The notes under the pieces were generated by a model. The model made no database searches, was not told the origin of the DNA, and worked only from the letters and a program-made list of their open reading frames with translations. A stretch of DNA of 64,000 nt from Coriobacteriaceae bacterium EMTCatB1. Lineage in GTDB: Bacteria; Actinomycetota; Coriobacteriia; Anaerosomatales; Anaerosomataceae. Location: contig BDLO01000001.1 in the NCBI GenBank assembly GCA_001950395.1, positions 372,001 to 436,000 on the forward strand, given 5' to 3'. Positions 1,464 through 18,640 of this stretch are shown in pieces (position 1 is the first letter of the stretch; each line of letters starts with the position of its first letter). The position numbers and the translations under genes were made by a program.

Positions 1464-4400
1464 GTGAAGCTGACCATCCTGAGCCGAGACAGTCTTGCCG
1501 CCAGGTACACGCGCATCGCCGCGGCGCTCGCCCTCGCGACGACCGTGCTGCTGGGCGCGACGGCGGCCTTCGGCGTCTACCGCGTGATGAGATCCGAGCA
1601 GCAGGCCCGCGTGGGTGCGTATCGCGACATCCTGCGGCTCGAGGTGTCGTCTCACCTTCAGACTGCTCATAGACTCGCTCGTGGGCTCGCTGACCGGAGC
1701 GAGGTCGCCGCGGGCGTCGGGTCCCGTGCCAAGCTCGTTCTGGGAATGGCCATACTGGACAACGGCGCGTATCTCTCGCAGCTCACGTTGGCTGAGCCAT
1801 CGGGGACAGTGGTGGCCTCGTACCCTGCGACCGACACGCCTTCTCCTGCAGACATCCGGGCGTGGACCGAGCACCTCCGCTCGGAAGGTAGCCGGAGTGC
1901 GTGGATAGCCGACGGGTCGACGGTGCGCATCGCGTTTTGGGCGGGCCCTTCAGGAAGCACGAGCCGCGTGCTGTTCGCTCGGGTGCAGACCGAACACATC
2001 ACGAGCACGCTCGAGCAGATCGCGTCGACTGCGCGATCGCCTATCGCGTTCATACGTGATGAGCAGGGGCGCATCCTGTTCTCGGGGGGCCCGATCGCGG
2101 AGGTCAGAGCGGCAGAGATCGAGGCGACTGGCGACCTCGAGGGCGCGGGTGGGCGTATCTCGCTCATACTGCCCCGCGGTCGCATGGAAGGCGCGATCGG
2201 CCGCGTCACTGGTGTGCCGGGCATCGCCTGGGACGTCGCGGTGCTGGAGCCCGCGCGTGCCGCCATGAACGAGACGTGGGCTGCTTTGCGTCCCGCCATC
2301 ATCGTCTACCTAGGGGTGCTTGTCCTCGTCGTGGTGGTGGCCGCGGTAGCGTTCTCGTGGCTGGTGCGCCCATTGCGCGCTCTGGAATCGCGGGCTCGGG
2401 CTGCGGCCCAAGGCGCGGTGCTCGATCCGGTCGCGGTCGACCGTGGCGACGAGGTCGGCCGTCTGCTCGAGTCGTTCAACCTCGTCACCATGCGGCTCAA
2501 CCGTCTGCAGGAGTCTGCGCGGCTGCTCGCCAAGACGGAGGAGCTCGACGAAGTCGCGCACAACGTCGTGCGTGCGGTCGTCCACCTCGTCGGCGTCTGC
2601 GACGCGGCGGTCTTGCTGGCTGACGAGGACGAGCAGGACGGCGGCGCCCTGCGGGTCGCTGCTCTTCGCGGGTCGTTCCAGCAACGGGCTGCGGCGGCGC
2701 GCATCGGCGTGACGTCTCGTGCGGTGCGAGACGTCGTGGAGTCCGGGGAGGCGAAGGTCGTCGCCACAGGGATGCAGTCGCTTCTCGGCGACGGCGAAGA
2801 GCTGGATGCGAGCGATTCTGTGAGCCTCATCGTGCCTCTTCGCGCCTCTGGCGGCACCATCGGCGTGCTGGCGGTCTCCAGGACGGGGGAGCGTCCTTTC
2901 TCCGACGCAGAGAGAGAGCTGCTCGCATCGTTCTGCGTGCAAGCCGCCCTGGCGCTCGAGAAGGCACGCCTGTTCGAGCGTGAGAGGCAGGCGCGAGTCG
3001 AGGCCGAGGTGCTGCAGCGAGCAGCTCGCCTCCTCGTGGAGGAGCCCGACCTGTATGAAGCGCTCCGGCAAGTCGCGAAGTGCGAAGCGGAAGCGCTCGA
3101 CATGCCGTGGTCGTTCGCCTGGCTGGACCCGGCTCTCTCCTCTGGTGATGTCGAGACGGCACCGTCAGCCGAGATCAGCGAACTCTTGGAGACGGTCGAG
3201 CGGCGTCAGCGGGGGATGGAGCAGGAGGGGGTCTGGTCCGGCGTGCTCGAGGTGCGTGCTGCTGACGGAGAGCCCGCGTCCGCGTGGCTGGCGCGTCACG
3301 CGCTCGCGGTCGCGCTGGTGACCTACGCAGTTCACGACGGGCGCGTGATGGGGATGCTCGTCGTGGGCAGCGAAGACGCTTCATCTGTGGTGGACGAGCA
3401 CCGCATGCGGATCGTCGAGACCATCGGCAAGGAGATCGCCCTCGCCCTGGAGCGCGCTCGGCTGTTCAAGGAAGCCCAAGACCGAGCTGCGAGCCTCGAG
3501 ACGGTGTTTCGCATCTCGCAGGCGGTCTCCTCGTCGCTCCAGGTCAACGTCGTGCTCGGCAGGGTCCTGGACGTGGTGCAGAAGCTTTTCAACGCCGATG
3601 CGGTCATCCTCATGCGGTGGAACCACGACAGGCGCGTCCTCGAAGTCCCTATGGCTCGCGGCATGCTGGACCGGGCGATGCTCGACTACCGCTGCGGTGC
3701 CGACGAAGACCTGCCGGGCGCCGTGCTGCAGACGCAGCAGGTCATGCTCGTATCCCATCTTGAAGAGGTAGGGACGAGGTTCGCCCGCATGGTGCTGCGC
3801 AAAGGGTTGCGATCGGCTCTGCTCGTGCCGCTCGTCGCGCGCGGCAAGGCGATCGGCGTCCTCGTGACCCTCGGGACGCAACCCGAGCGGTTCACCCGCT
3901 CGGACGCCGACCTGCTGAGCACGTTCGCGTCGCACGCGGCTCTCGCGATCGATACGGCCGAGCTCTTCAGCCGGGAGCACGAGGTGTCGCGGGTGCTCCA
4001 GGCGAGCATCTTGCCCGCTCGCCTTCCGGAGTTCGACGGGCTCGAGCTCGGCTCCGCCTACGCTCCAGCTCAGGGTGCGGCTCGGATCGGCGGGGACTAC
4101 TACGACGTCTTCGCAGCCGCCGATGGGAGAGTCGTGCTCGTGATCGCGGACGTCTGCGGCAAAGGCGTGGAGGCAGCCACGAAGACGTCCATGATCAGAT
4201 TCACCGTGCGGGGGATGGTGGCTGCTGGGGCAGGCCCGAAGGACATCCTGGAAGCGCACAACCAGATGGTTCACGACAGCGGAGATCCCAGCGACATCTT
4301 CACGATCTGGCTTGGCATGCTGGACGTCGAGGGCGGCCTGCTGACGTGGGCAGACGGCGGCCACCCGCCCGCCCTCCTGTGGAGACGAGCCGACAACGCC

Positions 4401-8382: not shown

Positions 8383-9403
8383 GGTGCTAGACAAAGTCAA
8401 GCTCTTCGCGGAACTCGTGAAGTTCGAGCACTCGATCTTCGCGCTCCCGTACGCGTACGTGGGTGCGCTGTACGGGGCGTCAGTGGCGTGGCTTGCGCCG
8501 TCGGGCGTGTGGCTGCGGGTGCGCGAGACGGTCCTCGGCTACCTGGGGCAGCACCTGGCCCTTGCGTGGACGTTTCAGGGAGACGCTCTCCCGCCGCAGG
8601 TGAGGCCCGTGAAGCTGCCGTGGGCCAGGGATGCCGTGACGCTCCTGCCGACGTGGTCTGCGCTGGCGTGGATCACGCTCGTCATGGTCGGGGCACGGGC
8701 GTTCGCCTTCGTGCTCAATCGCGCAATCGACAAGGAGATCGACGCGCGCAACCCGCGTACCGCTGGGCGCGCGGTCCCCGCAGGGCTCGTCAAGGCGTGG
8801 GAGCTGTGGCTGTTTGCGGCAGCGATGCTCGCGCTGTACCTCGTCGGGGTGTGGCAGCTCGCGCCGGTCGTTCGCCCGCTCGCGCCGATACCGCTCATCG
8901 CGTTCGTCGTCTACCCGTACACCAAGCGGTTCACGAACCTGTGCCACTACTGGCTGGGGATGTGCCTTGGTCTGGCGCCCGTCGGGGCGTGGCTCGCGGT
9001 GGGCGCTCCCGCGAACCATCCCGCGCCGTGGCTCATGGGAGCAGCCGTCGCGCTGTGGACGGCCGGGTTCGACATCATCTACGCCACCCAAGACGTCGAG
9101 TGCGACCGGCGGGACGGCGTGCACTCGATGCCGGCGGACGTCGGCGTCGCGCCGGCGTTGCGGCAGACGCGAGCCGTCCACGCGGCGACCGTCGTGCTGT
9201 TGGTGGCGGCAGGCGTTCTTGCAGGGGCTGGGCTGCCGTGGTTCCTCGGGGTGGCCGTCGCGGCGGGCTTGTTGTGGTACGAGAACTCGATCGTGAGCGC
9301 GGAGGACTTGAGCCGCGTGGATGCTGCGTTCTTCACCACGAACGGGATCATCGCCATCGTGGTGCTTCTCGGCGCGGTGGCCGACGTGTTGACGGGGGTG
9401 TGA
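8375..9403 (+). CDS. ubiA: UbiA-family prenyltransferase (MqnP-like)
   Basis: 342-residue polytopic membrane prenyltransferase. The two Asp-rich motifs that bind Mg-prenyl diphosphate are NRAIDKEIDARNPRTAGR (~residues 110-127) and DIIYATQDVECDR (~232-244). It starts within the end of ubiD (8-bp overlap) and is followed 3 bp later by ubiX. The paralogous enzymes prenylate 4-hydroxybenzoate or dihydroxynaphthoate; the operon with UbiD/UbiX suggests quinone synthesis, most simply menaquinone by the futalosine pathway. Odd feature: about 50 extra residues (~35-85) sit between the first helix and the first Asp-rich helix, making it longer than the usual ~290 aa. Confidence 0.88.
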   Translation: MGKVLDKVKLFAELVKFEHSIFALPYAYVGALYGASVAWLAPSGVWLRVRETVLGYLGQHLALAWTFQGDALPPQVRPVKLPWARDAVTLLPTWSALAWITLVMVGARAFAFVLNRAIDKEIDARNPRTAGRAVPAGLVKAWELWLFAAAMLALYLVGVWQLAPVVRPLAPIPLIAFVVYPYTKRFTNLCHYWLGMCLGLAPVGAWLAVGAPANHPAPWLMGAAVALWTAGFDIIYATQDVECDRRDGVHSMPADVGVAPALRQTRAVHAATVVLLVAAGVLAGAGLPWFLGVAVAAGLLWYENSIVSAEDLSRVDAAFFTTNGIIAIVVLLGAVADVLTGV

Positions 9404-10653: not shown

Positions 10654-10728
10654 GGGCGCTTAGCTCAGGGGGAGAGCACTTCCTTGACGCGGAAGGGGTC
10701 GTAGGTTCAAATCCTACAGCGCCCACCA
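10654..10728 (+). tRNA. tRNA-Val (GAC)
   Basis: 75 nt with acceptor stem GGGCGCT/AGCGCCC, D-arm AGCTCAGGGGGAGAGC, T-arm TAGGTTCAAATCCTA and CCA encoded. Anticodon GAC (10686-10688) reads valine codons. A TACAAT box at 10625-10630 is a plausible -10 element. A strong terminator follows at 10745. The accessory cassette-like stretch begins downstream. Confidence 0.95.
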
Positions 10729-10744: not shown

Positions 10745-10788
10745 GGGGCGGTATCGGTCAGAGCGCCGATGCCGCCCCGCTTGTTTTT
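10745..10788 (+). terminator. Rho-independent terminator after tRNA-Val
   Basis: GGGGCGGTATCGG (10745-10757) pairs with CCGATGCCGCCCC (10766-10778) with one G-T wobble, followed by GCTTGTTTTT. It ends the tRNA-Val transcript. Confidence 0.88.
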
Positions 10789-11025
10789 CGGGCAGGAGTG
10801 GGGTGGTGCGATCGGGAGGGTGGCGGCTGGAGGAGGGCAGGGGCTGAGCTGCGTGGCGGGCCGTCTGCGAAGATGGGGCTGGTTGTTGGGTGTCAGACGG
10901 ATGGCTAGACTGAAGCGGGGAGCCGCACCGAGGGGCTATGCGGTTCCGGTAAAGGAGTGTTAGGTGCTGTGTCAGTGCTCGGTGCAACAATCGGCCTCAG
11001 ACATGGTAATGAGAAGGAGTCTGCG
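10789..11025 (+). other. Intergenic region with possible cassette-start core site
   Basis: No convincing gene was found in this 237-bp region. GTTAGGT at 10959-10965 matches the integron R' core consensus GTTRRRY and precedes the first accessory gene. TAGACT (10907-10912 region) resembles the -10-like TAGACT that also occurs inside two of the downstream attC-like sites. A clear L''/L' pairing was not found here, so this is only a candidate left boundary of the cassette array. Confidence 0.35.
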
Positions 11026-11445
11026 ATGGATTGCTGGCGGACAGTCCGCAAGGGTGGATTTGATATCCACGTGTCGTACGGGCACACTTACTCGAACAAC
11101 CTCTACGCCTACAACACTCGTGTCCGCGGGGAGCCGCAGCTGGAGATCGAGGTCGACCTCAACCCCAATCTTCGTAGGCGCGACAAGGATTCGAGCATGG
11201 CGCTTGACGCCAGGGAGCTCGCGGACGGCGGCATCGCCCGACTCAAACTCTTCCAAATTGACGACCCGAAGCTCCTCGGCGCGCTCGAGGTCATCGGCCG
11301 GGAACTCGGCGGCTTGCCCGAGACTTGGCTACTTACCGTGCTGTTGAACGGCACCCACAGATTTCGCGTCACTCCAGAACTCAAGCAGTCGGGGGCGTGG
11401 ACATCCCTATTGCTCCACGTGGACGAATCTGATACACGCGGCTAA
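11026..11445 (+). CDS. Hypothetical protein in cassette-like position
   Basis: 139 residues, unrecognised. The protein begins MDCWRTVRKGGFDIHVSYGH and has no signal peptide or membrane segment. It reads as a mixed alpha/beta cytosolic protein with many Asp, Arg and Leu. ATG 11026 has a good ribosome site (aaggag, 11014-11019); upstream in-frame starts do not. Its stop lies inside the first clear attC-like site (11440-11524), exactly where a gene-cassette ORF would end. It could belong to the many functionless-so-far integron cassette proteins; no function can be given. Confidence 0.65.
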   Translation: MDCWRTVRKGGFDIHVSYGHTYSNNLYAYNTRVRGEPQLEIEVDLNPNLRRRDKDSSMALDARELADGGIARLKLFQIDDPKLLGALEVIGRELGGLPETWLLTVLLNGTHRFRVTPELKQSGAWTSLLLHVDESDTRG

Positions 11446-11524
11446 CAAACGCATCCAGCTGACGCGCAGAAGCGCTAGACTGAGTGGACGGCATCGGCGG
11501 GCAGCTGATGCGCAAGTGTTGGGT
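11440..11524 (+). repeat. attC-like integron recombination site 1
   Basis: Ordered attC features: R''-like GGCTAAC (11440-11446), L'' GCATCcAGCTG (11451-11461), central spacer, L' CAGCTGATGC (11502-11511) and R' GTTGGGT (11518-11524, matching GTTRRRY). L'' and L' are complementary except for one extra C, the extrahelical base typical of folded attC strands. It is roughly three-quarters identical, with short gaps, to the element at 15256-15341. R'' deviates from RYYYAAC at its second base. Confidence 0.7.
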
Positions 11525-11556
11525 CGCTTGTTGAGGCAAACTGAGACTAGTGAACC

Positions 11557-14500
11557 ATGGACAGTCTTCTAAAGACCTACCTTAGCTCTATTGCAGACCT
11601 CACTCGGCGTGGCGATGCTCGTGAGGAAAGTTACTACCCCGTGCTCAAGACGTTGCTCGAAGGTACCAGTCAGGAGCAGGGGCGAGCCATTCAGGTCACC
11701 GTCCTGCCGAAAAAGACCGAAGCCGGCAATCCCGATTTCCGCGTTTGGGACGGCTCGCATCAGGTCATCGGCTATATTGAGGCCAAAGCGCCGGGGGCAA
11801 CACTGGACAAGGTCGAGACCTCGGAGCAACTCCAGCGTTACCTGCATACCTTCCCCAACCTGATCCTGACCGATTTCTACGAGTTCCGCCTGTACCGCCA
11901 GGGCGTGCCGATCGAGCGCGCTGTGCTTGACCGTCCATTCAACGCGCAGACGGTCAAGACGAAACCGCCCGCCGAACAGGTCGAGGCGCTCATACACCTG
12001 CTGGAGACCTTCTTCTCTTTCGCGCTGCCGCCCACGCTGACTTCCGAGGCGCTCTCGGTCGAACTGGCGCGGCGCACCCGTTTCCTGCGCGATCAGGTCA
12101 TCTTGCTAGAACTGGCAGAACAAGTCGCAAAACAGCAGGGCGACCTCTATGGCTTCTACGATGCCTTCAAAGAATACCTCGTCTCCGGCCTGACCGAAGC
12201 GCAATTCGCCGACCTCTATGCTCAGACCATCACCTACGGTCTCTTTGCCGCCCGCACCCGCGCCCAAGGCCCTTTCAACCGCCAGATGGCTTATGCGCTC
12301 ATCCCCCCGACCATCGGCATCTTGCGCGATGTCTTCCATTTCATCTCCCTTGGCAGGCCCTCGCCGCAGATGGAAGTCATCGTGGACGACATCGCCGCCG
12401 TGTTGAACGCCGCCGATGTGCAGGCCATCCTGACGCAATACTACCGCCAGGGCAAAGGGGATGACCCCATCCTGCACTTCTACGAGACCTTCCTGGCCGA
12501 GTACGATCCCGAAACCCGCGAACGGCGCGGCGTCTATTACACTCCCCAGCCGGTGGTGAACTACATTGTGCGCGCGGTGCATCAGTTGTTGAAAGATCGC
12601 TTTGGATTATCCGACGGCCTGGCCGATGCGCGCGTCACCCTGCTCGATCCGGCCGCCGGCACGCTCACTTTCCCCGCCGAAGCGATCCGCCTAGCCTTCC
12701 AGGAGTTCACCGGCAAGTACGGTGAGGGTGCAAAAGAGACCTTCCTGCAGCAGCACATCCTGCCGCACTTTTACGCCTTCGAGTTGATGATGGCTCCCTA
12801 TGCCATCGGCCACATCAAGATCGGTTTCCTGCTCGAGGCGTTGGGAACGCCCTTGCGCAAGGGCGAGCGCGTCCAGTTCTACCTGACCAACACGCTGGAG
12901 ATGGAGGATCTGCTGCAGACCCCCATCCCCGGTCTGGCTTCGCTCAGTGAAGAGAGCCATCACGCGGCTCAGGTCAAGAGAAGCACGATTCTGGTCATCC
13001 TGGGCAATCCGCCTTATTCCGGCATTTCCGCCAACCAGAACAAGTGGACGGAACGCTTGCTCAAGACCGATCTGGACGGCGCCCAGAGTTACTACACGGT
13101 GGACGGCAAGCCGCTGGGCGAGCGCAACCCCAAATGGCTACAGGATGACTACGTCAAGTTCCTGCGCCTCGCCCAGTGGAAAATTCACGAGGCCGGGCGC
13201 GGTGTCGTGGCGATGATCACCAACCACAGCTACCTGGACAACCCCACCTTCCGCGGCATGCGCCAGAGTCTGCTCAAGACCTTTGACGAAATCTACATCC
13301 TCGACCTGCACGGCAACAGCCTGAAGCGCGAGACCGCCCCCGGCGGCGGCCCGGATGAAAACGTCTTCGACATCCGCCAGGGCGTGGCCATTGGTATCTT
13401 CATCAAGCACGGCAACGAGGGGAAGCGCGGCGTTTACCACGCCGACCTCTACGGCAAACGAGAAGACAAATACCGCTGGCTCGAAACGCACGACCTGACT
13501 AGCGCTGGTTATCAGCCCATCCAACCCACCTCGCCCTATTACTTCTTGATTCCGCGCGCCACAGCGAACCTGCACGCCTACCAGTCTTGGCCATCCGTGC
13601 CGGAGATTTTCTCCGTGAACAGCGTCGGTATCGTCACGGCGCGGGATGGTTTTGTCATTGCTTTCGAGAAGACCGAACTGCAAAACCGTGTCCTGCAATT
13701 CCAGAACATACAGGGTTTGCCCGATGAAGTACTGGCGCAGGCGTATCACCTGAAAGACAAGGCCGGTTGGTCTTTAAGCGCGGCGCGCAAACGCATCCAG
13801 GCCGAGAGCAACCCAGAGGCGCACGTTCACCCCATCCTGTATCGCCCGTTCGATGTGCGCTACATTCTCTACCACGAAGCCGTCATCGAACGCCCTCGCC
13901 CCGAAGTCATGCGCCACATGCTGGCAGGGGAGAATGTGGCGCTGGTGATGCCTAGGCGGGTGGAGCATGTAGGCACGTGGCAACACGTATTGATTAGCGA
14001 CCGGCTAGTTGAGCATGTTGCTGTTTCCCTGAAGACAATTGACTATTGCTTCCCCCTCTACCTCTACCCCTCTGCCACCGCGCCGGATATGTTCCAGCAG
14101 GCCAGGAGGGCCAATCTGGCTGAATGGCTGCTGCCCGAACTCGTCGCGGCCTATGACTTCACCCCCACGCCGGAAGAGGTGCTAGCGTACATCTACGCCG
14201 TGCTTTACAGCCCGGCCTACCGCCAGAAGTACGCCGCCGAACTACGCATTGACTTCCCGCGCGTCCCCTTCACCGCCGATGCCGACCTGTTCCGCCAGAT
14301 GGCTGCGCTGGGGCAGGAGTTGATTGACCTGCATCTGCTGCGCACAGTCCCCGCCCAACCGGGCGTCAAATACCAGGGCCAGGGCAGTGATCGGATCGAA
14401 TTCGTGCGCTACGACCCGCAGAGCGGGCGTGTCCACATCAACCGCGATAAGTACTTTGAGGGCATCACGCCGGAGATGTGGAACTATCAGATCGGCGGCT

Positions 14501-14658
14501 ACCAGGTGCTGGAAAAGTACCTGAAAGACCGCAAGGGCCGCCAGATGGACGACCCTGTGCGCTATATCCACATCGCCGCTGCGATTGAGCGCACAATAGA
14601 CATTCAGGCTCAAATTGAGCAGGCGTATCCACAAGTGGAAGTCAATGTCTTGCCGTGA
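11557..14658 (+). CDS. Single-chain restriction-modification enzyme (type IIG/ISP-like N6-adenine methyltransferase)
   Basis: 1033 residues. An N-terminal nuclease-like region has the PD-(D/E)XK pattern GNPDFRVW...GYIEAK (residues ~57-78). The central N6-adenine methyltransferase has motif I LLDPAAGTLTFP (~362-373) and motif IV GNPPYSG (~482-488). The C-terminal ~350 residues resemble target-recognition regions of type ISP/IIG enzymes. No helicase motifs are seen. Such proteins modify self DNA and cut unmodified phage DNA. The lower GC and different codon endings compared with neighbours suggest transfer. It lies between two attC-like sites, and at 3.1 kb would be an unusually large cassette. 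The ribosome site is weak. Confidence 0.85.
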   Translation: MDSLLKTYLSSIADLTRRGDAREESYYPVLKTLLEGTSQEQGRAIQVTVLPKKTEAGNPDFRVWDGSHQVIGYIEAKAPGATLDKVETSEQLQRYLHTFPNLILTDFYEFRLYRQGVPIERAVLDRPFNAQTVKTKPPAEQVEALIHLLETFFSFALPPTLTSEALSVELARRTRFLRDQVILLELAEQVAKQQGDLYGFYDAFKEYLVSGLTEAQFADLYAQTITYGLFAARTRAQGPFNRQMAYALIPPTIGILRDVFHFISLGRPSPQMEVIVDDIAAVLNAADVQAILTQYYRQGKGDDPILHFYETFLAEYDPETRERRGVYYTPQPVVNYIVRAVHQLLKDRFGLSDGLADARVTLLDPAAGTLTFPAEAIRLAFQEFTGKYGEGAKETFLQQHILPHFYAFELMMAPYAIGHIKIGFLLEALGTPLRKGERVQFYLTNTLEMEDLLQTPIPGLASLSEESHHAAQVKRSTILVILGNPPYSGISANQNKWTERLLKTDLDGAQSYYTVDGKPLGERNPKWLQDDYVKFLRLAQWKIHEAGRGVVAMITNHSYLDNPTFRGMRQSLLKTFDEIYILDLHGNSLKRETAPGGGPDENVFDIRQGVAIGIFIKHGNEGKRGVYHADLYGKREDKYRWLETHDLTSAGYQPIQPTSPYYFLIPRATANLHAYQSWPSVPEIFSVNSVGIVTARDGFVIAFEKTELQNRVLQFQNIQGLPDEVLAQAYHLKDKAGWSLSAARKRIQAESNPEAHVHPILYRPFDVRYILYHEAVIERPRPEVMRHMLAGENVALVMPRRVEHVGTWQHVLISDRLVEHVAVSLKTIDYCFPLYLYPSATAPDMFQQARRANLAEWLLPELVAAYDFTPTPEEVLAYIYAVLYSPAYRQKYAAELRIDFPRVPFTADADLFRQMAALGQELIDLHLLRTVPAQPGVKYQGQGSDRIEFVRYDPQSGRVHINRDKYFEGITPEMWNYQIGGYQVLEKYLKDRKGRQMDDPVRYIHIAAAIERTIDIQAQIEQAYPQVEVNVLP

Positions 14659-14660
14659 GG

Positions 14661-14732
14661 GCGACCCGGCCCGCGCTTGCAGCCGACCACTTCGCGCTCG
14701 CTTCGCGGCCGCTGAAGCGCAAGTCGCTAGGT
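14661..14732 (+). repeat. Degenerate attC-like site
   Basis: Directly after the restriction-modification stop. GCGCTTgCAGC (14673-14683) pairs with GCTGAAGCGC (14711-14720) except for one extra G, the same single-base bulge seen in the other two sites. It is followed by AAGTC and GCTAGGT (14726-14732), one base from the GTTRRRY core. The R''-like half is poorly conserved. Confidence 0.5.
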
Positions 14733-14760
14733 GTAGCCGCAGGAATCTTCGGGGGTCCGC

Positions 14761-15243
14761 TTGGTCTGGGTCATTTGGCCGCTGTTGGCGTGGGGCCTCA
14801 CAGCGCTTGTGAGCAAGCTCCTCGGCACTCGTCTTGCCGCGGCCGGCGGGCGTCTCCCTCTGGCTATGCGGATGGTAATCGTCCTTGGGTCGGGAGCGAT
14901 TTCGTTCGCGTTGTTCTGGTGGCTGTTCGACGTCCCGGGATTCCTGGAGAGCCAGCGTCTCATTGCACGAGGGGACTTGGAGGCGGCAGTACGGGCACAT
15001 CACCCTCTTTGGAATCCGGATCCAATGGTGGTGTTCCAGATAGCCCTGCTCGCCCTGTCGGTTCTGGGCATACACATGGCAGCGCGACCCGCCTGGTGGT
15101 TCAGGAACGGCTTCCCCGGCAAGGCTCCCGATGACGTGGCTGTAGACCACCGGGCTGTTCGAAGGTTCCGGGTCTACGGTGTCCTCATCGCGGCGGCTGG
15201 TCTCTTCGCGGTGGCGGCTACTGCTCTCACGTTCTTGAAGTAG
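14761..15243 (+). CDS. Hypothetical polytopic membrane protein
   Basis: 160 residues from a TTG start preceded by a gggggt ribosome-like sequence at 14751-14756. Four hydrophobic stretches (about residues 1-20, 35-55, 88-107 and 135-157) suggest 3-4 membrane helices, separated by an acidic/His loop. I do not recognise a family. It is bracketed by a degenerate attC-like site upstream and a clearer one starting 12 bp after the stop, so it looks like single-gene cassette cargo. The start is uncertain. Confidence 0.55.
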   Translation: MVWVIWPLLAWGLTALVSKLLGTRLAAAGGRLPLAMRMVIVLGSGAISFALFWWLFDVPGFLESQRLIARGDLEAAVRAHHPLWNPDPMVVFQIALLALSVLGIHMAARPAWWFRNGFPGKAPDDVAVDHRAVRRFRVYGVLIAAAGLFAVAATALTFLK

Positions 15244-15255
15244 GAGTCGGGCGAC

Positions 15256-15341
15256 AGCTAACAAGCGCATCCAGCTGAGGCGCACGAGGTAGACTGACTA
15301 AGACGGCATCGGAGCGCAGCTGAGGCGCCAAGGCGTCAGGT
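15256..15341 (+). repeat. attC-like integron recombination site 2
   Basis: 86 bp, co-linear with the 11440-11524 element: AGCTAAC (15256-15262), L'' GCGCATCcAGCTG, shared TAGACTGA and CGGCATCGG blocks, L' CAGCTGAGGCGC (15317-15328) and GTCAGGT (15335-15341) at the R' position. The extra C in L'' is retained. R' carries C where GTTRRRY expects T, so the site may be weak or decayed. Confidence 0.65.
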
Positions 15342-15382: not shown

Positions 15383-16327
15383 ATGAAGCAGCCATTGGCA
15401 AAGCTCAAGAGACTTGACCCTAGGACTGTGTGGCCTAGCGAGCCGCGCGATTTCACGCCGTGGCTCGCTGAGAACATCGGCATGTTGGGTGAAGTGCTCG
15501 GAACGGATCTCGAAGTCACTGCGACTGAACAGAGCGTTGGAGATTTCTCTCTAGACATCCTTGCTAAGGACTTGTCCACGGGAGACGCTGTCGTAATCGA
15601 AAACCAGTACGGTTCGACCGACCATGATCACCTGGGGAAGCTTCTCACGTACGCATCCGGAGTAGAGGCCTCCATGCTCGTATGGATCGCCCAACAGATC
15701 CGGGACGAGCACCGACAGGCTTTGGAGTGGCTTAACGAGAGGACTGATTCCTCAACCTCGTTCTTCGCAATCGCCCTTAAGGTGCTGCAGATTGGTGACT
15801 CGCCGCCTGCAGTGAACCTCAATCCCATCGTCTTTCCCAACAAGTGGCAAAAGGCGACGCGCCGAGCCAGCCAAAGCCCGACGCCGAGAGGGCAGGCGTA
15901 TCAGCGGTTCTTCCAGGGACTCACTGACGAACTTCGGGAGCGGCACAAGTTCACCAAGAGCCACATCGCGCAACCTCAGAACTGGGCATCTTTCGCCTCT
16001 GGCGTTTCAGGAATCACCTATGCCGCTGTGTTTGCCCAGGGTGATCGTGTCCGCGTAGAGCTCTACATCGATCAGGGAGACGCTCAGAGGAACAAGGAGA
16101 TTTTCGACGGACTGCTCCTGAAACAACATGAGATTGAGAAGGAACTGGGCGAGGAGCTTTCCTGGGAGAGGCTCGACGACAAGAGGGCCTCACGTATAGC
16201 CGTGTACCGCGACGGATCAATCGAAGCGGATGAGCAGACTCTAGCTGAACTGCACAAGTGGATGATCGAACAGCTGCTTGCGTTCAAGCGCGTGTTCACG
16301 CCGTATCTCAAGGAGCTGACAGCATGA
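15383..16327 (+). CDS. DUF4268 PD-(D/E)XK-like nuclease-fold protein
   Basis: 314 residues. The N-terminal ~110 residues look like a PD-(D/E)XK fold: GDFSLDILAKD (residues ~52-62) followed by VVIENQYGSTDHDHLGKL (~70-87), with E-x-Q replacing the usual E-x-K. The C-terminal half (~175-310) matches the DUF4268 type often found near defence genes. A role in DNA cleavage or defence is inferred only from fold and context. ATG 15383 follows gaggagaag (15371-15379). GC is lower than in host genes. The gene sits 42 bp after an attC-like site; no clear attC follows its stop. Confidence 0.7.
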   Translation: MKQPLAKLKRLDPRTVWPSEPRDFTPWLAENIGMLGEVLGTDLEVTATEQSVGDFSLDILAKDLSTGDAVVIENQYGSTDHDHLGKLLTYASGVEASMLVWIAQQIRDEHRQALEWLNERTDSSTSFFAIALKVLQIGDSPPAVNLNPIVFPNKWQKATRRASQSPTPRGQAYQRFFQGLTDELRERHKFTKSHIAQPQNWASFASGVSGITYAAVFAQGDRVRVELYIDQGDAQRNKEIFDGLLLKQHEIEKELGEELSWERLDDKRASRIAVYRDGSIEADEQTLAELHKWMIEQLLAFKRVFTPYLKELTA

Positions 16328-16475
16328 AAGGGTGGCCGCTGGCAGCCTTCAGCTTGCTGCCGACGACCTTGTAGCGGCCTCCGGGGTTCGCTCAGATGGG
16401 CGATGAATGTCCCTGGAATCTGTATGCTAGGGAGGGCGCTGGCTGAATAGCGCCGCCGCTGCCGGCTGAGACGGA
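16328..16475 (+). other. Short intergenic stretch with inverted repeat
   Basis: No gene was recognised. GGCCGCT near 16335 and AGCGGCC near 16372 form a loose inverted repeat that could be a transcript hairpin after the DUF4268 gene. It does not show the attC architecture of the three upstream sites. Confidence 0.3.
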
Positions 16476-16811
16476 ATGGGGGGCTCATCGGAGAAGCTTT
16501 TCCAAGACGAAGACGTGGCACTGTCCGTCGAAGCGAGCGATCTTCTCCGCGTCGGCGTCATCCTGGTGGGACTCAGCGTCTTGGCGAAGGGCCTGGTCAG
16601 CATTGTTGCCGTTATGAACGACACACTGGGCGTGGCGTTGCTCTTCCAGCCGGAATTGGACTTCGACCCGTTCTCGTGGTCGGGAGCGTTCGTCGTAAGC
16701 ATAGTCATGAGCATCTTCCAGGTCGTCTTCGGAGCTCTGTTCGTGCTGCAGTCGCGGCGAGTCGCGGCGTGGCTGTGGCGGCTGGACGAGCAGGCGCCGG
16801 CGGTCGACTAG
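16476..16811 (+). CDS. Small hypothetical membrane protein
   Basis: 111 residues with two or three hydrophobic segments (about 24-45 and 70-92). The N-terminus MGGSSEKLFQDEDVALSVEA is acidic and cytosolic-looking. No family is recognised. The start codon is ATG without a strong ribosome site, so the gene itself is only moderately supported. It lies between the DUF4268 protein and the cell-wall protein, at the right edge of the accessory region. Confidence 0.45.
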   Translation: MGGSSEKLFQDEDVALSVEASDLLRVGVILVGLSVLAKGLVSIVAVMNDTLGVALLFQPELDFDPFSWSGAFVVSIVMSIFQVVFGALFVLQSRRVAAWLWRLDEQAPAVD

Positions 16812-16945
16812 CCTGCGTTCCGTCCGAACCGCGGCGCGAGATTCGACCCGCAAGACGACGCGGACGCCGAAGCAGCACGATGCCCGTAGCCAGCTCGGGC
16901 GTGTTATCGTTTCTGAAGGCGAGGCGAACGGCGGAGGGTGGGCTC

Positions 16946-18640
16946 ATGCGGAAGACGGCGATATTCGTACTCGGTCTGGCCATCAGCTGCTCTCTTGCCG
17001 CGCTTCCTGCAGCCGCCGTGGCGGCCTACGACGGCGGCGACGTGTGCGTGACCACGCAGCGGCTTTCGGGAGTGGACCGATACGGCACCGCGGTCGCCGT
17101 CTCCGAAGCCGCGTTCCCCGGTTGGGAGGGCGTCCGGACCCTCGTCGTAGCGTCGGGCGAGGATGCGTCGATCAGCGACGCGCTTGCCGCATCGGCGCTC
17201 TCTGGTGCGATGGACGCGCCGCTGCTGTTGGTGCGCCGCGACGGCGTGCCTGCCCCCGTGCGGAGCGCGCTTCAGGCGATCGCCTCACGCGAGCCGACGG
17301 TGGCGGTCGTGGTCGTCGGAGGTCCCGGCAGCGTCAGCGACGCCTGTGTGCGCGCGATCCGAACCGAGCTCGGATCGTCGGCAGAAACCACGCGTGTCTT
17401 CGGGCCCGACAGGTACGCCACGGCTGCGGCCGTCGCCTCGCTCGTGGCCTCGCGCGATACTTCGTCGTCGCCCGCAATGGTGCTCGTCGCCAACGGCGAG
17501 CCCTCGAAGGGCCTCGTCGACGCACTTGCTGGGTCAGGAGTTGCGGCGTCAGCTCGCGCGCCGATGCTGTACGTCGCCCGCGACAGCGTCCCTGAGGCCA
17601 CGAGGTCGGCTCTGGAGTCGCTCAGTGCTTCCCAGGTGGTCGTCCTCGGCGGTGAAGGAGTCGTGTCCGATGCGACCGCACGCGCCGTGGGAGCCACGGA
17701 GCGGTGGTGGGGCAGCAACCGGTATGGCACCGCCGCAGCGATCGCTCGCGAGGCGCGCGAGCGCGGGATCGTCGATGCGACGTCAGCTGTGGTGGCTCGG
17801 ACGGTCGTGGACGCCGTCGCTTCGGCGCAGCTGACCGCGCGTGGCGGCGGCCCACTGGTGCTCGTGAGCGCGACGGGGGTGCCGCAGGAGACCGCAGCGT
17901 GGCTCTCGGATCCTGGCGCCGGGATCTCGCGGGTGACGCTCGTGGGTGGGGAGGGCGCAGTGCCGCGGGCAGTGCAGTCGGAGCTCGAAGGCCGTGCGCA
18001 CGCCCCGGAGTTCGTCGTCCCAGTCAGGAACGCGCCCGTCGGCAAGAAGGTGGTCGTGACTGTGCGCACCGGCGTGAACACGCGCACGGTCAGGCTCTAT
18101 GGCGGGACCACGCTGCTTGCTGAGAAGAGCGCAGCACCGTACTCGACCGTGTCGTTCGGAACCGTCGCCAGCCCGAACGACGGCGAGGCGTTGCGTGCGG
18201 TGGCGGTATCCAGCCGCGGTTCCACGGGCGAGTCGGCGATGCGGTTGCGGCGGCTGGCGTACCCTGCGGCAACGAGCATCGTGGTAGACAAGTCGGACTT
18301 CCGGCTCTACTGGGTCAAGAACGACGTGCTCGTGAAGGCGTACCCGATCGCCATCGGCAGACCCGGCATGGAGACGCCGGTGGCGATCTGGAAGATCGGC
18401 GCGAAGTACTACACCGACCCTCAAAGCGTGTACGGCCCGCGCAAGATGCGCCTGTTCCGGCGGGTGGTCAGCGGCGATTCGGTGCGTTACGTCTACACGG
18501 CGTACGGCATCCATGGGACGAACCAGCCGTGGGTTATCGGCACCAAGGCGTCCCACGGATGCATCCGCATGTACAACAAAGACGTGCTGGAGCTCTTCCC
18601 GCAGGTGCCGCTCGGCACGCTCGTTCAGACTCGGGAGTGA
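16946..18640 (+). CDS. Secreted cell-wall protein: CWB2 repeats plus L,D-transpeptidase (YkuD)
   Basis: 564 residues. A signal peptide spans ~1-28 (MRKTAIFVLGLAISCS, Ala-rich cleavage region). Residues ~35-325 form three cell-wall-binding repeat 2 domains, each beginning like RLSGVDRYGTA (also FGPDRYATA, WGSNRYGTA). A short beta domain follows (~335-440), then a YkuD L,D-transpeptidase (~445-564) with the catalytic SHGCIRM motif (~535-541) and an upstream IHGTNQ His. CWB2 anchors proteins to wall polymers; YkuD makes 3-3 peptidoglycan crosslinks. ATG 16946 follows ggaggg (16933-16938). It overlaps the convergent lipid-kinase gene by 16 bp. Confidence 0.9.
   Translation: MRKTAIFVLGLAISCSLAALPAAAVAAYDGGDVCVTTQRLSGVDRYGTAVAVSEAAFPGWEGVRTLVVASGEDASISDALAASALSGAMDAPLLLVRRDGVPAPVRSALQAIASREPTVAVVVVGGPGSVSDACVRAIRTELGSSAETTRVFGPDRYATAAAVASLVASRDTSSSPAMVLVANGEPSKGLVDALAGSGVAASARAPMLYVARDSVPEATRSALESLSASQVVVLGGEGVVSDATARAVGATERWWGSNRYGTAAAIAREARERGIVDATSAVVARTVVDAVASAQLTARGGGPLVLVSATGVPQETAAWLSDPGAGISRVTLVGGEGAVPRAVQSELEGRAHAPEFVVPVRNAPVGKKVVVTVRTGVNTRTVRLYGGTTLLAEKSAAPYSTVSFGTVASPNDGEALRAVAVSSRGSTGESAMRLRRLAYPAATSIVVDKSDFRLYWVKNDVLVKAYPIAIGRPGMETPVAIWKIGAKYYTDPQSVYGPRKMRLFRRVVSGDSVRYVYTAYGIHGTNQPWVIGTKASHGCIRMYNKDVLELFPQVPLGTLVQTRE

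Follow-up and report, generated by a model that had tools for sequence, protein, structure and literature searches.

An attI-headed cassette array without its own integrase, probably served by a distant chromosomal integrase in an actinobacterial genome

Introduction

What kind of element is an array of integron-like gene cassettes that stands on a chromosome with no integrase gene beside it? This question is raised by a 64,000-nucleotide stretch of DNA (the window; G000:C1:372001-436000) from Coriobacteriaceae bacterium EMTCatB1, whose genome is a single contig of 1.84 Mb with about 67% GC and which probably belongs to a Coriobacteriia order, Anaerosomatales/OPB41. An integron is usually described as a single platform that has one integrase, one adjacent attI site, one promoter and a mostly silent cassette array. 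The original prediction for the window, made from the sequence alone, described a different arrangement, namely an array resembling a cluster of attC sites lacking an integrase (CALIN). Our analysis shows that the array holds three attC sites and is headed by a relative of attI, that the same genome carries an intact integrase (IntI) with a second attI and array, and that the insert is absent from related species. We therefore read the locus, with a probability of roughly 75%, as a cassette array with an orphan attI of its own at the head, located as an insertion between tRNA-Val and cell-wall-binding/L,D-transpeptidase genes and used by the chromosomal IntI in trans. Coordinates below refer to the window unless the genome is named.

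Results

Three attC sites

To search for attC sites, a covariance model (R1) was built by aligning 23 attCs, all from other genera, which had been collected from relatives by a strict scan. In this alignment, 93% of the cells are paired and 13 pairs have changed on both sides, a covariation score that was reached by none of 500 shuffles. When applied to the 64-kb window, the model returned exactly three significant matches, with the next match at an E-value of 1.1: attC 1 (11440-11524; core GTTGGGT; 59.5 bits, E 5.4e-14), attC 2 (14664-14732; short loop and degenerate core GCTAGGT; 31.7 bits, E 3e-6) and attC 3 (15256-15341; core GTCAGGT; 57.1 bits, E 2.5e-13). All three are on the plus strand, with gaps of about 3.1 and 0.5 kb, and aligned to the model each shows paired L''/L' arms with an unpaired base. 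The hexamer TAGACT, similar to a -10 element, is present in attC 1 (11476-11481) and attC 3 (15290-15295) and lacking in attC 2. Moreover, attC 3 is 87% identical over 91 bp to an attC of another genus (G013). These results agree with the original prediction, which had placed three sites of attC architecture here, each just past a gene stop, and had proposed a covariance-model search as a check. It had found the TAAC R'' half clear in two sites, and attC 2 is indeed the one without it.

The strict scan, which is independent of the model, gave attC 1 a score of 14.8; random sequences matched in dinucleotide content yielded 0.2 matches per 64-kb strand at scores of at least 13 and none at 14 or above. 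Earlier, looser scans had been dropped for DNA of 67% GC, as they produced about 80 random matches per 64-kb strand at the threshold considered initially. A rescan of the insert with R1 and the filters off revealed no further attC. At E-values up to 1, the model found 10 attCs in the whole host genome, in only two clusters, one in the window (genome positions 383440-387341) and the other at 1728604-1734672. By model score the three sites of the window are thus attCs, with the function of attC 2 and attC 3 in doubt.

An orphan attI at the head of the array

The region upstream of the first cassette contains a site, attI' (10906-10965, plus strand), that is 76% identical over 59 bp to the intI-linked attI of the same genome. 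It has the GTTRRRY core (GTTAGGT at 10959-10965) and the core-proximal element that characterize the attIs of the genus. A start at 10959 had already been given for the array in the original prediction; this is exactly the G of the attI core, although the attI itself had been missed. When positions were scored with a matrix derived from intI-linked attIs of other genomes, the host genome being left out, 10959 ranked first of about 128,000. A pattern search, which replaced a BLAST search for attI copies in the genus that was too insensitive and missed even the main attI, gave two matches in the host genome, one each in two related genomes (G002 and G003) and none in a congener that has no intI (G001). 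Across these four genomes the pattern was specific to attIs, with zero control matches.

Overlapping attI' on the plus strand is a sequence resembling the cassette promoter (Pc), consisting of TTGTTG, 17 nt and TAGACT (10883-10911, with TAGACT at 10906-10911). Each of the four attIs of the genus has TTG 17 nt before TANACT, a spacing that is consistent with a Pc promoter. The same features bear on whether cassettes of the main array simply landed at an ordinary secondary site, an attG-type insertion as for IntI1, with the resemblance to attI being coincidental. Secondary-site insertion by IntI is established according to work cited in PMC12901181, and G002 has a lone attC with a cassette of VapBC type that shares 88% identity with one of the main array. 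However, a resemblance that spans 59 bp, includes the promoter spacing and is the best of about 128,000 positions under a matrix free of the host genome makes this explanation very improbable.

The integrase and the main integron

Consistent with the original prediction of an array without a visible integrase, no trace of intI was found within the insert. The genome as a whole is not without one: the search for intI elsewhere that had been proposed as a check identified an intact, full-length IntI at genome positions 1726649-1727590 (TIGR02249, 470 bits versus a cut-off of 265), which aligns end to end with the Vibrio cholerae IntI of solved structure, 2A3V. It is the only IntI above the cut-off in the genome and lies about 490 kb from the window array, beside the second array. 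At this main locus intI is followed on the same strand by attI, whose core lies 161 bp past the stop, and then by the array. An intI adjoining an attI and an array, which defines a complete integron, is therefore found at the main locus and not in the window. With at least two attCs and no intI nearby, the window array is a true CALIN, as had been proposed, comprising three attC-bounded genes and a fourth gene without an attC.

Three further observations concern integrons of this genus. In the main array (L008 about 1760-3215; G000:C1 about 1729760-1731215), an IS110-family transposase gene (2117-3106) appears to interrupt an attC and to separate its L'' arm from the remainder; the right part still scores 19 bits. 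The congener G001 (L191, L192) has no intI and no match to the attI pattern and has kept several attCs, some flanking the main integron locus on its right and the rest at a second location, a case of integrase loss with retention of cassettes. Finally, a lone attC in G002 (L193 6435-7214; G002:C8) lies away from the integron of that genome and next to DNA that shares 88% identity with the AbrB/VapC-type region of the host's main array.

Boundaries of the insert and its genes

On its left, the insert is flanked by the chromosomal tRNA-Val (GAC) gene (10654-10728, plus strand; ARAGORN and Rfam), which occupies the same locus in 12 relatives, and by a terminator-like hairpin 3' of it (10745-10778, plus strand), which is shared with G002. 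Homology to relatives resumes at about 17024, inside the cell-wall-binding/L,D-transpeptidase gene. The distance from tRNA-Val to this gene is about 185 bp in G001 versus 6.3 kb in the host genome, G003 also lacks the 6.3-kb insert, and in G002 this place is occupied by a tRNA-targeted element together with another gene. A search of the locus in the 12 relatives found no attC.

At the locus in G002 (G002:C16, L148), the element integrated at the same tRNA-Val carries a phage-type integrase and a duplicated tRNA-Val end, and the gene after it (756 aa) contains cell-wall-binding repeats. The sequence after this tRNA-Val in G002 was also considered as an attI; it appeared attI-like by eye, and the candidate was rejected when 69 of 200 shuffles aligned as well.

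An occupied tRNA-Val in G002 might suggest that the window insert was likewise brought by a tRNA-targeted integrative element, with the att-like sites as passengers. We regard this as barely credible, since the insert contains neither a second tRNA 3' end, which contradicts such an origin, nor a phage-type integrase, and begins downstream of the tRNA terminator.

Four genes, all on the plus strand, make up most of the insert. Cassette gene A (11026-11445; 139 aa) is of unknown function and matched no family. Cassette gene B (11557-14658; 1033 aa) encodes a type ISP/IIG restriction-methyltransferase (PF18135, E 2.4e-89; PADLOC REase_MTase_IIG, E 1.9e-264). Cassette gene C (14761-15243; 160 aa), also of unknown function and without a family match, encodes a protein that resembles a membrane protein by its hydrophobic stretches. 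Gene D (15383-16327; 314 aa) is a DUF4268/PDC-S11 phage-defence candidate (PF14088, E 1.6e-33; PDC-S11, E 3.5e-118). Two of the four genes are thus of defence type, consistent with arrays acting as stores of anti-phage genes. The remainder of the insert, which runs from gene D up to the chromosomal gene on the right (16328-17023, no strand assigned), holds a 111-aa open reading frame of unknown kind (16476-16811); it contains no attC and matched nothing in the relatives compared.

Among 69 genomes of the order, gene A occurs in two, B in one and D in three, and no relative holds two of them. Together with the absence of the insert from related species, this distribution runs counter to one of the two outcomes named as refuting the original prediction, that the genes always move together or are fixed in the lineage; the other, background scores from covariance models, did not occur either. 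Elsewhere in the order A has a single further copy, a 46% homologue in another genus (G013), which is the first cassette, with an attC behind it, of an integrase-less array. By comparison, no attC was found near the relatives of gene D in G025 and G039, so they provide no evidence for D as a mobile cassette.

Is the array decaying?

Several features weigh against an array that is still in use. The GTTRRRY core is perfect only in attC 1, with attC 2 and attC 3 each one base off. Folding of the bottom strands, which had been proposed as a check, gave no support: attC 1 to attC 3 folded no better than shuffles (z -0.9, 0.0 and 0.0), while for comparison intact attCs gave -4.6 in the main array and -3.9 in a relative. 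The distal repeat element, located about 100 bp upstream of the core in intI-linked attIs, had no match at attI' with up to five mismatches. A generic promoter scan, too strict for calling this promoter, called nothing at attI', and no attC follows gene D in the scanned insert.

These features, the promoter scan aside, would be expected if the locus were a fossil, that is, a second complete integron that lost its integrase and whose attI and cassettes are now decaying without recombination; attI' moreover differs from the main attI by 24% and so is not a recent copy. On the other hand, the attI' core, the promoter-like spacing and attC 1 are intact, the insert has no trace of intI, the cell possesses an intact IntI, and orphan attI-headed arrays are kept in other genomes too (see below). 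We thus consider a fossil unlikely. The original prediction had suggested that the array may be old or of a divergent integron class because all sites deviate somewhat from consensus. The sites do not represent a divergent class: they match the attC family of the host's order, and the cores of two of them have decayed.

If the chromosomal IntI serves the array, as the sequences suggest, it would recombine an attC arriving as a folded bottom strand with attI', whose double-stranded core lies at 10959, and new cassettes would consequently enter beside the Pc-like promoter. With intact cores in attI' and attC 1, cassette A should be mobile, whereas B to D are probably poorly mobile because attC 2 and attC 3 have altered cores.

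Integrons in the order and the phylum

Of the 68 relatives belonging to the order, 46 have an IntI above the curated cut-off. Sampling of 30 genomes from other parts of the class yielded none, and a sample drawn evenly across the phylum had it in 15 of 396 genomes. The IntI of G014 is identical to that of Actinobacteria bacterium UBA2272 and the IntI of G027 to that of HGW-Actinobacteria-7, which makes Coriobacteriia OPB41/Anaerosomatales the most likely order. attC matches were present in 64 of the 69 genomes of the order, including 50 of the 51 of good quality. In a tree of IntI, the genus is placed near sequences from Spirochaetota and Neomarinimicrobiota with moderate support, and the order does not form one clade. 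Actinobacteriota have been listed among integron carriers (PMC8618304). The IntegronFinder 2.0 survey of 2022, however, reported no complete integron in Actinobacteria and suggested an incompatibility (PMC9024848), with which the clear integron systems found here in Actinomycetota contrast. Our searches of an open-access collection turned up nothing about integrons in Coriobacteriia, which is not proof of absence.

Arrays similar to that of the window were sought in relatives, in sixteen attC-bearing stretches selected by their attC matches, except for L205, which was included for its copy of gene A. None of the 16 contains intI. Four are cut by contig ends, and about nine of the 12 uncut stretches open, in our reading, with an attI-like site. 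The best-supported heads are those of L213 (profile E 1.9e-11), L215 (E 1.4e-6, matrix score 31.5), L206 (matrix score 26.9) and L208 (G013:C12; matrix score 11.4 at the head). L208 also scores 21.7 inside the array, with a high-scoring attI-like core at 9328, so that such cores are not confined to heads; L216, outside the approximately nine, has a strong core (15.0). The remaining heads were recognized by the distal element, GCTTACACAGACTGC, and by position. These positions are within about 30 bp past the stop codon of proS (G010, G013 and G017) or of a DinG-type helicase gene (G017), and the lysC cases (G005 and G019) have both kinds of support.

Five loci (L222, L223, L227, L231 and L236) were found through the distal element itself, which is a selection bias. 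As the pattern search for this element picks up a conserved coding motif (e.g. L228, L237 and L239-L241) along with true attI elements, matches were used only if a core was present, mostly with attCs nearby. intI-less arrays with an attI-like start were noted at L205, L206, L208-L211, L213, L215, L216, L218, L222, L223, L227, L231 and L236, several of them directly 3' of a housekeeping gene, namely proS, lysC, a DinG-type helicase gene and also uvrC (G011). Lacking the distal element and following a tRNA, attI' may be a variant of this orphan-attI theme and not a typical case.

A -10-like hexamer in attC loops

The TAGACT hexamers of attC 1 and attC 3 belong to a pattern seen across the order: TANNNT is present in the hairpin loop, in the sense direction, in 81 of 88 attCs, compared with 25 in the antisense direction and 10 in shuffles. 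Clustering at 70% identity left 48 sites, of which 41 carry it, compared with about 6 in shuffles. TANNNT shows by far the largest excess among the 64 XYNNNZ patterns, and attCs of other phyla show none (5 of 28). In the profile of the hexamer, the T1, A2 and T6 columns are fixed by the way in which sites were selected; the inner letters vary, and a G two bases upstream is common. In the window, about 75 to 90 bases separate each hexamer from the start codon downstream of it, that of gene B for attC 1 and that of gene D for attC 3.

The simplest reading of TANNNT is a -10 element for the next cassette, a promoter function suggested by sequence pattern. Less probably, shared ancestry or the demands of the recombination reaction, and not promoter function, preserved the hexamer. 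The order's attCs are interrelated, and a search for a -35 partner found none conserved, which tells against the promoter reading as well. Neither descent nor recombination readily accounts for an excess that persists among sites less than 60% identical (21 of 26, shuffles 3.1), is restricted to the sense strand, exceeds that of the other patterns despite variable middle letters and is absent in other phyla. As a -10 element, the hexamer in attC 1 and attC 3 would probably drive the following cassette, so that genes far from Pc need not be silent.

Discussion

The window system appears to be part of a set of order-wide chromosomal integrons in which intI is on the cassette strand and several genera have additional attI-headed arrays after housekeeping genes. 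We tentatively propose, at somewhat less than even odds, that a distributed integron is common across this actinobacterial order: one IntI would act on several attIs, most of them within about 30 bp past the stops of housekeeping genes or after a tRNA, and most attCs would carry their own -10, such that cassettes are expressed wherever they have landed. In place of the usual single platform with a mostly silent array, the order thus suggests a layout of several attI platforms per genome, one integrase and promoter elements inside attCs. Since the order includes described species in culture (PMC9686372), both ideas, multiple platforms and attC promoters, are testable.

Like a CALIN as defined by IntegronFinder, the window array has at least two attCs, cassettes in one orientation and no intI nearby. 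It differs in being headed by a recognizable attI with a Pc-like promoter and in that the genome holds the likely cognate integrase; IntegronFinder seeks attI only for class 1 (PMC9024848). In chromosomal integrons of the atypical Treponema type, in which intI points towards attI, intI, attI and cassettes are on one strand, as at the main integron here (PMC3607928). That type, however, has one attI per integron (PMC3607928), whereas the host genome has a second attI-headed array about 490 kb away. The resident integrase, attI, array and accessory or defence-type genes resemble the sedentary chromosomal integrons of Vibrio, from which the host differs by the opposite orientation of intI, short arrays, two platforms and -10-like elements in most attCs. 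Promoter-bearing gene-less cassettes of Vibrio and Treponema likewise provide promoters within arrays that are able to drive later cassettes (PMC11014356). Those promoters are located in particular gene-less cassettes, whereas in the host's order about 90% of attCs have the -10-like element in their loop. Finally, Delta-attI-type cassettes of mobile integrons also carry attI sequence away from the integrase (PMC12901181), but there a partial attI replaces an attC within an array, whereas in the window an attI heads a separate array.

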